A DNA stretch of 64,000 nt, taken from Pseudomonas sp. FP453. GTDB taxonomy: Bacteria; Pseudomonadota; Gammaproteobacteria; Pseudomonadales; Pseudomonadaceae. Below, piece by piece: positions 2,056 to 64,000 of the stretch. The stretch spans positions 1,116,001-1,180,000 of the forward strand of contig NZ_CP117435.1 in the NCBI RefSeq assembly GCF_030687495.1, in the 5' to 3' direction. The notes under the pieces were generated by a model. That model was not told the origin of the DNA. It searched no databases and was given only the letters and a program-made list of their open reading frames with translations. Both the position numbers and the translations under genes were made by a program. Each line of letters begins with the position of its first letter. Within the stretch, counting starts at the first letter, position 1.

Positions 2056-2971
2056 GGTCGTCGAACTCCTCGTACAGTGCGATAACTAACGCGTTGATAT
2101 TTCCGAAAAGTACGCTGCCTGTGATAGCTAAAGTCGCGCTAACTTGATCCCTTATTTGCGTGATTATGCGCAGTCGTAACTCGGGGTTGCTGTAGCGTCT
2201 GGGCAATTGTCCAGCCAACTGCTTCAGGCGAATTATTTCGCGGGGATGGCGGGGATTGCTCAGCCGAAGAACTTCGTCCGTTAATTTGGCGCGTTCTTGA
2301 CGGCTCATGGGTCTCAATATGTCCGTCATCTCGCGCCCGGTCGAACGTTTGATAGCCATCACGGTTCTGACCGTTGCAACGGTGGAGGCCCCTGCGCCGA
2401 CCAATGAAATACCATCCAGAGCAACGGTCATTGCTTGATACCAAGCCAGGGTGTCGTAGTAATCGTTCTTGGCAGGGTCAGTTAACTCGTTACGGGTCCT
2501 CCATACACCGTTAAAGCACTGTGCGCCGCTGGCGGCCAGGCCTGCGTATGACACATAGGTCAAGGCGAGGCTTGCGCCGCCACTAAACGGCGCTGCGGCT
2601 ATGCCTGCCTTTGCGACAACGAAACTAATCACTGCCCCGCCGCAGGAAAGGGCCATTCCCGATGCCTCACGCCACAGCTGAGACTCACGAGGTGAACTTG
2701 CCACCTGCTGTGCATAGTCTTCAGTAGTAACTGCCTGCTCTACTGTTTCCCGCAAAATCACGCGCTTGGGCCTGACACTGCACAGCGGTACAAACTCCCT
2801 CAGCACCGTCACCTGATAATCACTGCCGATATGCACCACCCCAGCCCCGACGATGGCCGGGTCGGCGTCTATGGTTTGATAGAGTTTTGGCAGGTCCAGC
2901 AGACTGGTCAGGCGCTGGCGCGTGGTGGTGTGCGCGGTTGGCACGCCGCTTTGCAGGAAATCCCTTGGCAT
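2039..2971 (-). CDS. Unrecognised protein with Gly/Ala-rich membrane segments
   Basis: This is a 310-residue protein I cannot assign. The N-terminal 120 residues are soluble (LDLPKLYQTIDADPAIVGAG, VTVLREFVPLCSV). Residues about 125-175 are a long Gly/Ala/Ser-rich hydrophobic stretch, followed by a second one (ISLVGAGASTVATV, about 205-220) and a C-terminal one (LAITGSVLFGNINALVIALY, about 280-300). Between them lies a basic helical section (RPMSRQERAKLTDEV and onward). There is no signal peptide. Glycine-zipper hydrophobic pairs like this occur in membrane-inserting toxins, and the following small membrane protein would fit an immunity partner, but this is inference. The start at 2971 has AGGTGAAAGG directly upstream, inside an inverted repeat. 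Confidence 0.7.
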   Translation of the reverse strand: MPRDFLQSGVPTAHTTTRQRLTSLLDLPKLYQTIDADPAIVGAGVVHIGSDYQVTVLREFVPLCSVRPKRVILRETVEQAVTTEDYAQQVASSPRESQLWREASGMALSCGGAVISFVVAKAGIAAAPFSGGASLALTYVSYAGLAASGAQCFNGVWRTRNELTDPAKNDYYDTLAWYQAMTVALDGISLVGAGASTVATVRTVMAIKRSTGREMTDILRPMSRQERAKLTDEVLRLSNPRHPREIIRLKQLAGQLPRRYSNPELRLRIITQIRDQVSATLAITGSVLFGNINALVIALYEEFDDHEFRY

Positions 2972-2972
2972 C

Positions 2973-3002
2973 CTTTCACCTGTGGGTAGACAGAGGTGAA
3001 AG
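2973..3002 (-). promoter_or_regulatory. Inverted repeat covering the ribosome binding site of the 2039-2971 gene
   Basis: CTTTCACCT at 2973-2981 and AGGTGAAAG at 2994-3002 are perfect 9-base arms around a 12-base loop. On the minus strand the proximal arm is the Shine-Dalgarno region immediately before the ATG at 2971. It could be an RNA hairpin limiting translation or a protein operator; the sequence does not decide. Confidence 0.5.
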
Positions 3003-3090
3003 AGCCTGAGGATTGGTTCCTTGAAATGATGTCAGGCCGTTCGCTGTTTCTTGTAGTACCTGGCCCTATGGACCAAACACAAAACTAACC

Positions 3091-62844: not shown

Positions 62845-63000
62845 TCACCACCTCACATGCCTTCACGATAGTTGTCTTTTGCGACTACTGTATTTATATA
62901 CAGCGAAAAGGGTAAGCCAAACCGTGGGGTTTGGGTAGCAGTTTTTTAATGTAGTTGGAAAATTGGGGTTTGCTATAACGGAAATTTCTGACAACTTGCC
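62845..63000. other. Divergent promoter region between yebG and the DUF6124 leader
   Basis: This AT-rich stretch holds the LexA box (62888-62903) and, on the plus strand, TATAAC at 62974-62979 as a likely -10 for the DUF6124 leader transcript. No convincing -35 is at the right distance. I see no gene here. Confidence 0.5.
62888..62903 (-). promoter_or_regulatory. LexA (SOS) box of yebG
   Basis: CTGTATTTATATACAG is a perfect CTGT-N8-ACAG palindrome with an AT-rich core, the gammaproteobacterial LexA consensus, placed in the yebG promoter region. Confidence 0.92.
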
Positions 63001-63240
63001 GGGGTTGCGCTGGAATTGTCCGGTGGCTTACCTTCCTCGGGCGCTGCATTTGCAGCGAGTGGGCTTGGCGGCCCAACAAGGAAGCGCAACAACCCCCCGT
63101 GAGGCTGCAGACGTTTTTGCATTTGCATTCTTGTGTTATGGCGGGTTGCGCATGGACCCTTCGGGGTGCCGGGTCGTTCCTTACCGGTCCGCCAACCTTG
63201 TGCAATCCGTCACCCAATCTGCTTGGCGGCAGACGGTGAT
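63001..63240 (+). promoter_or_regulatory. Long structured 5' leader of the DUF6124 gene
   Basis: These 240 bases carry two stem-rich modules and no credible coding. Module 1 (63001-63096): GTTGCG pairs with CGCAAC (63004-63009, 63085-63090) and CTTCCT with AGGAAG (63032-63037, 63079-63084), enclosing hairpins CGCTGCA-TT-TGCAGCG and GGGC-TTGGCG-GCCC. Module 2 (63139-63236): TTGCGCA pairs with TGTGCAA (63146-63152, 63199-63205) and encloses ACCC-TTCG-GGGT and a CCGG hairpin. TCTGC-TTGGCG-GCAGA is enclosed by CCGTC and GACGG. TGGCGG (63139) and a second TGGCGG (63224) compete for CCGCCA (63189). A cis-acting RNA element is inferred. Confidence 0.6.
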
Positions 63241-63266
63241 GGTTTCTTTACTAAGGAACTAGGCCA

Positions 63267-63512
63267 ATGAAGAAAATTACTCCCAATCCTCCGGCTACCG
63301 ACTCGACACTATTCTGCGTTGCACCCGAAGCTGACACTGAAACCTTACTGGCCAACGCCAGCGAAACCCTATGCAGTGCCCGTGAAATGGCTAACACGCT
63401 GGCATTCGACCTTGACGGTCCGCAGCGGAGTCTAGTGTTAGCTATTCACCAATTGGTTGAAATGGGCTGCCTGTTAGTCGACCGAGCGTTAGAGAAAGTC
63501 GCACCAGTGTGA
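63267..63512 (+). CDS. DUF6124 family small protein
   Basis: This 81-residue protein, KKITPNPPATDS then an acidic, helix-rich region (TLLANASETLCSAREMANTLAFDLDG, given in part) and a hydrophobic end (LVLAIHQLVEMGCLLVDRALEKV), fits the Pseudomonas-specific DUF6124/DUF3077 small proteins. These genes are multi-copy in many pseudomonads and have no known function. AAGGA lies nine bases before the ATG, at the end of a long structured leader. Confidence 0.75.
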   Translation: MKKITPNPPATDSTLFCVAPEADTETLLANASETLCSAREMANTLAFDLDGPQRSLVLAIHQLVEMGCLLVDRALEKVAPV

Positions 63513-63663
63513 TGCGTGGTCCTCTGACCGCTCCTGCAATTTGGGGCGGTCAAAACATGGTCCCAATGGCTTCGATTTTTCCTGTTACTCACTTCATCGC
63601 TCAAAGCACGACAGCGAAAACGCGAGCGACTAGACTTCTTTTTCATCGACAACGGAGGCTTTT

Positions 63664-63852
63664 ATGGACACTTCCTTTTCCTCTGGTATCCACGCAGATA
63701 CCGAAGAGCAGGCCGATAGCTACGACCGCTGGTTTCGCGCCAAGGTACAAGCTGCTCTTGATGACACCAGCCCCGGCATTCCTCACGACGAGGTGATGGC
63801 CGAGATGCAAGCGTTGATCGAGTCCAAACTCAAGAAAGGCGATGCTGATTGA
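63664..63852 (+). CDS. RelB/ParD-like antitoxin
   Basis: This 62-residue protein (YDRWFRAKVQAALDDTSPGIPHDEVMAEMQALIESK, given in part) has the typical RHH-like antitoxin pattern with the WFRAKVQAAL / IPHDEVMAEM motifs of the RelB family. The downstream toxin starts inside its last codons (ATG 63842), the usual coupling in type II systems. GGAGG lies before the ATG. The antitoxin would bind the toxin and the module's own promoter. Confidence 0.8.
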   Translation: MDTSFSSGIHADTEEQADSYDRWFRAKVQAALDDTSPGIPHDEVMAEMQALIESKLKKGDAD

Positions 63853-64000
63853 GTGGGTGCCCGCAGCGCGGGTGGAACTTCGGCAAATTATTGATTACCT
63901 CAGTCATCGCAATCCTGTCGCAGCTCTCGAGATAAAGCGTTCAATCGAAGCTTCGGTTCTGGCGCTCTCCCGCAGACCCCACCTTTACCGTCCTGGCAGA
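63842..64000 (+). CDS. RelE/ParE-type toxin, cut by the window end
   Basis: Fifty-three codons are visible: MLIEWVPAARVELRQIIDYL, then SHRNPVAALEIKRSIEASVL and RRPHLYRPGR. This is the N-terminal helix-loop-strand opening of ParE/RelE toxins with the conserved W/Y-P-A-R and RRP-LYRPGR regions. The ATG lies in an 11-base overlap with the antitoxin stop. Whether it is a ribosome-dependent RNase or a gyrase toxin cannot be told from this fragment. Confidence 0.8.
   Translation, partial: MLIEWVPAARVELRQIIDYLSHRNPVAALEIKRSIEASVLALSRRPHLYRPGR

Follow-up and report, generated by a model that had tools for sequence, protein, structure and literature searches.

C4-family antisense RNA in the leader of a DUF6124 gene of Pseudomonas and its two-part target code

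The leader of a DUF6124 gene in Pseudomonas sp. FP453 contains short words that recur and can pair in more than one way, which raises the question of what kind of regulatory element it is. An earlier reading made from the letters alone (the sequence-only reading) described two stem-rich modules and left the choice between a riboswitch, a protein-binding leader and a base-pairing RNA. The words on which it was built are all in place, i.e., GGGTTGCGC at 63002 and 63143, CTTGGCGGC at 63064 and 63222, TGGCGG at 63139, TTGCGCA at 63146, CCGCCA at 63189 and TGTGCAA at 63199, as is an AAGGA-type ribosome site (63253-63257) before the ATG at 63267. We analyzed the locus in the window (the whole stretch of 64,000 nucleotides from this genome) and among related loci. 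Our main reading, to which we give a probability of roughly 85%, is that a C4 antisense module makes up the leader and would control the DUF6124 gene behind it; judged from the sequence, the antisense RNA in the leader probably blocks the ribosome site of its own gene. The features of the locus are as follows.

63005-63033, +, candidate sigma70-type promoter: -35 TTGCGC (63005-63010), 17-nt spacer, -10 TTACCT (63028-63033)
63027-63083, +, a1/b1 module, in the order CGCTGC...GCAGCG hairpin, a1-bearing hairpin, b1
63065-63071, +, a1, TTGGCGG, complementary to a' (7/7)
63078-63083, +, b1, AAGGAA, complementary to part of b' (6 nt only)
63098-63128, +, place of a terminator-like hairpin with a T-run, present between b1 and C4 in some paralogues
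63134-63217, +, C4 antisense RNA, by alignment to the Rfam RF01695 covariance model
63139-63155 with 63196-63212, +, C4 stem P1 (Rfam alignment)
63156-63167, +, C4 hairpin P2 (Rfam alignment)
63168-63172 with 63184-63188, +, C4 hairpin P3 (Rfam alignment)
63176-63183, +, b', GTTCCTTA, in the P3 loop (loop 63173-63183)
63189-63195, +, a', CCGCCAA, unpaired C4 linker
63223-63229, +, a2, TTGGCGG, predicted target of a'
63235-63245, +, x segment, GGTGATGGTTT, predicted alternative partner for the 3' arm of C4 stem P1
63252-63259, +, b2, TAAGGAAC, matching b' and holding the DUF6124 ribosome-binding site
63267-63512, +, DUF6124 gene, 81 aa (Pfam PF19619, 101.9 bits; cut-off 27)
62973-64000, insertion holding both the C4-DUF6124 unit and a RelB/ParE-type toxin-antitoxin pair, ending near 64161 by continuation in the own genome

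The C4 RNA and the segments around it

A search against Rfam, which the sequence-only reading had proposed as a check, placed a C4 RNA (RF01695) on the forward strand before the DUF6124 gene with 64.8 bits (cut-off 45; E = 2.7e-10), and this was the sole Rfam match above cut-off in the whole window. In the Rfam alignment, P1 is formed by GGCGGGTTGCGCA (63140-63152) pairing with TGTGCAATCCGTC (63199-63211), and TGGCGG (63139) pairs with CCGTCA (63208) inside the C4 stem. As TGGCGG thus has CCGTCA as its partner, a pseudoknot with CCGCCA, one of two arrangements suggested previously, is unnecessary; the other, mutually exclusive pairing, is retained in modified form, in that a' could pair with either copy of its target (a1, a2) and the C4 3' arm with either its own 5' arm or x. 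In an alignment of 39 C4 RNAs, 12 of the 20 predicted pairs were changed on both sides, and the b' loop was among the most variable parts. Together with the joint change of b' and b2 described below, this is the opposite of the outcome that the sequence-only reading had named as refuting it (no conserved leader in homologous loci, or no covariation across the stems). By score, predicted fold and targets, the window leader is a member of the C4 family.

Folding energies were compared with those of shuffled sequences and gave z scores of -0.59 for 62990-63120 (58/200 shuffles as good), -2.04 for 63121-63290 (5/200) and -2.23 for the whole leader (2/100). By itself, folding energy is uninformative for the upstream module and mild for the rest, and the covariance-model match is decisive. 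The 5' word of the upstream module, GGGTTGCGC at 63002, probably represents promoter DNA (the -35 region) lying outside the RNA. The predicted transcription start of this candidate promoter is near 63040; the promoter sequence is largely kept in seven relatives of the window locus, and a promoter-like sequence was seen by eye at a similar place upstream of paralogues. We treat the promoter as a candidate because an automatic consensus promoter scan listed no site for it.

Downstream of the C4 RNA, a2 and b2 are complementary to a' and b', and b2 lies over the ribosome site; a second copy of the target, a1/b1, is present upstream. Both copies of CTTGGCGGC (63064 and 63222) correspond to a1 and a2, each of which is complementary to a'. 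The Rfam model for the upstream module (RF03163, c4-a1b1) aligned to 63027-63079 under loose settings with 19.3 bits, which is under its cut-off of 46.7, and was above cut-off in four paralogues (L001, L006, L007 and L012). The isrK model (RF01394) gave no match in the window (E up to 1); it was above cut-off at L006 (50.4) and L208 (55.8), and it overlaps the a1/b1 module at several loci of this study.

The pairing code across C4 loci

The C4 RNAs listed for four Pseudomonas genomes came to 142 matches, of which 4 were not fetched and 1 of the 138 fetched was partial, leaving 137 usable. In the own genome, 13 C4 loci were over cut-off; all 13 show by eye the order a1-b1, C4, a2-b2, open reading frame (with b1 weak in some), and in 12 the frame stands where expected and encodes 35 aa or more, the remaining locus (L003) having a very short frame followed by a DUF3077 gene. 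Complementarity between a' and a2 was perfect (7/7) in 103 of the 137 loci, as compared to 7.1% with partners shuffled within genomes, and 33 different a' codes occurred among these 103 loci, some of them common to up to 14 loci. The longest exact b' run averaged 7.0 bases, as compared to 4.4 with shuffled partners; a run of at least 6 was found in 102 loci, in 77 of which it touches a Shine-Dalgarno-like motif, and 86 of these 102 b2 runs are absent from the target region of every other C4 locus in the same genome, while 16 occur there. Accordingly, a2 is imperfect in 34 of the 137 loci and the b' run is shorter than 6 in 35; one own-genome locus (L009) that was mis-parsed by the hairpin finder is scored as a miss in this comparison. 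Perfect a2 matches were also found in 21/27 and 29/36 loci of two further genomes and in 20/26 loci of other genera, where 23/26 matched at 6/7 or better.

When a' and b' were scored together, C4 RNAs fitted their own target better than other targets (0/5000 permutations as good in each of the four genomes), and the own target ranked first for 12/13, 22/35, 31/55 and 19/34 loci. The upstream copy follows the same pattern: a1 was perfect in 104/137 loci, and the cognate a1/b1 copy fitted better in each genome (0/5000 permutations as good), with weaker ranks (first for 11/13, 12/35, 15/55 and 8/34 loci). For the window C4, the own target ranked second of 13, and third (with two others above) in a first, cruder test; as it ranks other targets above its own, crosstalk is possible.

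The same question was addressed among close relatives of the window locus, in 7 of 11 of which the C4 RNA is kept. While a' is constant in these 7 relatives, b' occurs in six distinct forms, window included. With segments cut by eye, cognate pairs of b' scored higher than non-cognate ones for both b2 (7.9 vs. 5.7; 4/720 permutations as good) and b1 (7.2 vs. 5.3; 2/720). The fit is uneven, i.e., one b2 is common to the window, L276 and L277, L278 pairs poorly (5.5), and L284 fits the target of L286 better than its own; overall, b2 and b1 tend to change with b', weakly so in one relative. A second comparison involved L010, another own-genome C4 locus, and the corresponding unit of the related genome G017, which have flanks, a similar protein and a' in common and differ in b', b1 and b2. 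The b' of L010 scored 10.4 with the b2 of L010 and 4.95 with the b2 of G017, fitting the first and not the second; at the G017 counterpart, no clean ungapped b' match was found over the ribosome site.

These results bear on the nature of the leader. A riboswitch or protein-binding leader would fit a structured leader near a ribosome site; however, no Rfam riboswitch match was found at the window leader, and loops and targets change in step, as is characteristic of base pairing and not of a pocket for a ligand. We thus consider this explanation extremely improbable, and of the three kinds of element initially suggested the base-pairing RNA is the one that stands.

The spacer between a2 and b2 contains further complementarity. 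Among the 118 of the 137 loci with a2 matching at 6/7 or better, complementarity of x with the C4 3' arm scored 7.76 on average, as compared to 5.51 in shuffled spacers, and cognate values exceeded non-cognate ones in all four genomes (9.05 vs. 8.31, 7.70 vs. 7.22, 7.81 vs. 7.21 and 7.09 vs. 6.46; 26, 10, 0 and 1 of 2000 permutations, respectively). This complementarity backs an exclusive pairing, in that a transcript could either leave its C4 intact or form a hairpin with x. It would also suit a switch acting purely in cis, in which pairing of the C4 3' arm with either the 5' arm or x sets access to the ribosome site without any free antisense RNA, as x exceeds shuffled spacers and, slightly but consistently, other loci. 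Such a switch would not require the b'/b2 code, and processed C4-type RNAs with far more reads than the upstream part are described in Acinetobacter (PMC5320573); we therefore regard a purely cis-acting switch as distinctly unlikely.

The minimum-energy fold of the window also pairs the C4 5' arm with a segment after b1. This pairing was somewhat enriched over shuffles (7.21 vs. 6.24; 99 loci). We did not adopt it, as cognate segments were no better than non-cognate ones in three genomes (988/2000, 170/2000 and 674/2000 permutations as good), G009 being the exception (6/2000). In G009 we also observed tandem C4 RNAs (L194, 1001-1556; L199, 1001-1943; L207, 1001-1299), with three lying within about 300 to 950 bases; several of these have no matching target or reading frame and look decayed.

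Terminator-like hairpins between a1/b1 and the C4 RNA were found in 8/13 loci of the own genome (vs. 12% in mononucleotide shuffles) and in 12/35, 15/55 and 5/34 loci of the other three, as compared to 7-13% in mononucleotide shuffles across the four genomes. This enrichment is what one would expect if antisense pairing with a1/b1 caused early termination of transcription, so that the gene would be controlled by attenuation more than by a block of the ribosome site. A precedent is the CI RNA of satellite phage P4, described in PMC4825925 as an antisense RNA with a copy of its target on either side (seqA and seqC); CI RNA acts by transcription termination, and we liken it to C4 by description. 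On the other hand, the hairpins amount to 40 of the 137 loci, some of them are poor or represent the a1 hairpin itself, and the candidate in the window is poor and doubtful. Moreover, attenuation has no need of the position of b2 near the ribosome site. Control mainly by attenuation thus appears unlikely to us.

Under our main reading, that of a C4 antisense RNA blocking the ribosome site, we infer the following course of events. A single promoter would yield an RNA in the order a1-b1, C4, a2-b2, gene. The C4 part would fold into its three-stem form and, as in phages P1 and P7, be excised by RNase P. Free C4 RNA would then bind a2 by means of a', and b2, which holds the ribosome-binding site, by means of b', so that DUF6124 would be silent both in cis and in trans. 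As a1-b1 bears the same two addresses, it could compete for C4, and at loci with a terminator after a1-b1, the resulting short, IsrK-like RNA would serve as a decoy and the gene would be switched on. DUF6124 would represent a product whose synthesis has to be prevented, as with the antirepressors and the SymE toxin that follow other C4 RNAs.

Cargo, distribution and mobility

The AlphaFold model of the window DUF6124 protein is a two-helix hairpin (helices 24-48 and 52-77; mean pLDDT 87.3) with a loose N-terminal tail, MKKITPNPP. A fold search returned mainly generic helical matches and none with E of 0.001 or below, and PHROGs gave nothing for this protein. It is 95% identical to a protein of Pseudomonas sp. 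CHM02 and 88% identical to one of P. lurida.

The frames directly behind C4 RNAs in the four genomes include 69 DUF6124, 11 DUF3077 and 3 Bro-N matches among 117 frames (one protein may match more than one Pfam family); 6 of 123 open frames, judged to be non-genes, were left out of an alignment of these frames. Among named genomes, 51 relatives of the window protein were found, all in Pseudomonas by record title, and a C4 RNA lies upstream of 43 of them. The statement in the sequence-only reading that similar leaders precede other DUF6124 and DUF3077 genes in Pseudomonas is therefore borne out. Of the remaining 8 relatives, one leader is cut by a contig end and seven lack C4. The motif P[DN]PP occurs within the first 16 residues in 87 of the 123 frames. 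Bro-N antirepressor-like proteins stand behind C4 RNAs at L149, L094 and L166 of G049; that of L149 starts with MIKVTPNPP, a tail like that of the DUF6124 proteins, which suggests exchange of cargo behind a fixed start.

Outside Pseudomonas, 10 of 23 frames behind C4 RNAs, picked as familiar-looking, were scanned against Pfam and gave AntA (1), pRha (2), Bro-N (2), P22_AR_N (1), SymE toxin (1), CsrA below cut-off (2) and no match (1). The SymE-type toxin gene (L227:1635-1832, +; Pfam SymE_toxin, 48.8 bits) stands directly behind a C4 RNA; SymE is otherwise known with an RNA from the opposite strand. The weak, below-cut-off resemblance to CsrA concerns small proteins behind the C4 RNAs of L213 and L232.

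DUF6124 genes also occur without C4. The own genome has 13 DUF6124 matches, 10 of which lie directly behind a C4 RNA by coordinates and three of which do not. One of the three, L014 (C1:5823889-5824077), has a short leader with an a1-type hairpin and a differing a element, and its ribosome site is TAAGGAAC as in the window, so that the window b' could reach L014. A DUF6124-like gene without C4 at L023 (C1:3822325-3822507) adjoins a PrrF sRNA (Rfam PrrF, 160.9 bits). In the seven C4-less relatives from named genomes, an a1-type hairpin is followed by a short stretch and then the ribosome site (by eye), and four of them stand at the place of the window unit, as judged by flank. As the same words stand on both sides of C4, a deletion between these repeats would be a simple route of loss. 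Three C4-less targets, one of which (L290) came from another strain, were compared with the 27 and 36 C4 RNAs of two genomes, and no C4 RNA among these fitted both a and b at the proper places. L348 and L370 matched the a element and not b, L342 matched b of L282 well (10.75), with its a match elsewhere (total of 20.5, as compared to a cognate median of 17.55), and L333 matched b of L291 (11.35) and not a.

C4 RNAs were found in 54 of 59 genomes of the genus and, under stricter filters, in 18 of 274 genomes of the class, the own genome included. Among the 59 genus genomes, G049 had the highest count (55 matches, 52 over cut-off). The window unit lies in an insertion together with genes for a RelB/PaaA2-type antitoxin and a ParE-type toxin (63664-64000, continuing to about 64111). 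In G017, just 2 nt separate what lies left of 62972 from what lies right of 64162, and the own genome thus carries about 1.19 kb extra; G006 is also without this insertion. As other relatives carry a unit at the window site, both gain and loss are possible. For L010, which is present in G017, four genomes (G004, G052, G038 and G002) match the left flank and not the unit, and G048 has pieces of the L010 unit some kilobases away. Downstream of C4 units we also observed a REP-like short interspersed repeat, GTGGGAGC...GCAAGCC (L010, around 1907-2001 and 2921-3011; L009), with dozens of copies in relatives.

The window unit had no DNA match in 50,697 phage records. Among viral contigs, a C4 RNA precedes a relative of DUF6124 in 6 of 6 loci, and in phage record EU982300, the only phage record with a protein match, C4 precedes a DUF6124-relative gene at the end of the record, beside a repressor gene. 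Plasmid records gave no protein match to the window DUF6124; among the 20 plasmid DNA matches listed (26 records), 19 cover the toxin-antitoxin genes next to the unit. The remaining one is an unannotated 78% DNA match of an Azotobacter salinestris plasmid (NZ_CP045303.1, 79419-79540) to 63125-63242 of the window, i.e., C4 and a2.

The company of the window unit invites a further explanation, compatible with silencing by C4, in which DUF6124 is toxic, C4 is its RNA antitoxin, and the whole would be a type I toxin-antitoxin unit, a cassette that is hard to lose. Its place in an insertion beside a RelB/ParE pair, the many copies of such units with mostly separate codes and the C4 RNA before a SymE toxin gene in one genome are all consistent with this. 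However, the seven C4-less relatives keep the DUF6124 gene, which argues against a strong toxin unless expression has also been lost, and we hold a toxin-antitoxin role to be a real, if doubtful, possibility.

Relation to known antisense systems

C4 is the immunity RNA of phages P1 and P7, and in the P1 operon a1/b1 lies upstream and a2/b2 downstream of it. The window locus has in common with the P1/P7 system (RF01695, RF03163) the three-stem RNA with a' and b', the a1/b1 copy upstream and a2/b2 over the ribosome site, all within one predicted operon. It differs in cargo, which is icd/ant there and DUF6124/DUF3077 here, and in that many Pseudomonas chromosomes contain tens of C4 copies, with b2 codes mostly private to each copy. 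The cargo sets the window unit apart from phage operons of the P1 type. C4 of P1 and the targets of this RNA are covered in PMC8198154, PMC8201110 and PMC5320573, the last of which cites processing of the P1/P7 C4 by RNase P to an RNA of ~77 nt.

C4 itself is known, and large chromosomal sets have been reported in Acinetobacter. In A. baumannii AB5075, the 21 Group 1 C4-like sRNAs resemble the present set in their many chromosomal copies and variable target segments, and they are processed from longer transcripts (PMC5320573). The targets are left open there, whereas most C4 RNAs here have a matching target directly downstream.

IsrK of Salmonella Gifsy-1 (RF01394) offers a parallel for the upstream module, as it combines a short terminated leader RNA with a read-through mRNA of alternative pairing and a small reading frame (PMC4825925). 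The window itself has no isrK match, and the cargo is a different one in Gifsy-1, namely orf45-anrP (PMC4825925). Provided in trans, IsrK raised translation of a downstream fusion 114- to 171-fold and transcription 8-fold, an effect ascribed there to contact of IsrK with the mRNA that makes the ribosome site accessible, and a processed RNA of ~80 nt, STnc1160, arises from the isrK read-through transcript (PMC4825925). The term 'C4 RNA' is absent from PMC4825925; for Xylella, C4 and isrK stand side by side in a table (PMC12189769). By analogy, IsrK would represent the a1/b1 decoy of a C4 system and STnc1160 would represent a C4 RNA, and the window a1/b1 may act as an IsrK-like decoy.

To our knowledge, the DUF6124/DUF3077 cargo, the copy number per chromosome and the mostly private codes are new; among the titles listed for C4 antisense RNA and RF01695, none names DUF6124 or DUF3077. 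We tentatively propose, as a possibility that falls short of even odds, that Pseudomonas carries mobile RNA-locked cassettes (up to 52 C4 RNAs per genome), each holding a small protein of the DUF6124/DUF3077 type under its own two-part address. These cassettes would swap cargo (DUF6124, DUF3077, Bro-N) and be recoded to avoid cross-silencing, and may represent barcoded toxin or antirepressor units, perhaps serving in competition among phages.

Targets of the chromosomal C4 RNAs of Acinetobacter were not known; as a matching target lies directly behind most C4 RNAs examined here, the target question becomes testable locus by locus. For DUF6124 and DUF3077, Pfam families of unknown function, these data provide a first handle, as both would be cargo of an antisense lock that elsewhere guards antirepressors and a toxin. 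Finally, up to 52 copies per genome with mostly different codes represent a natural test of RNA-RNA specificity within one cell.
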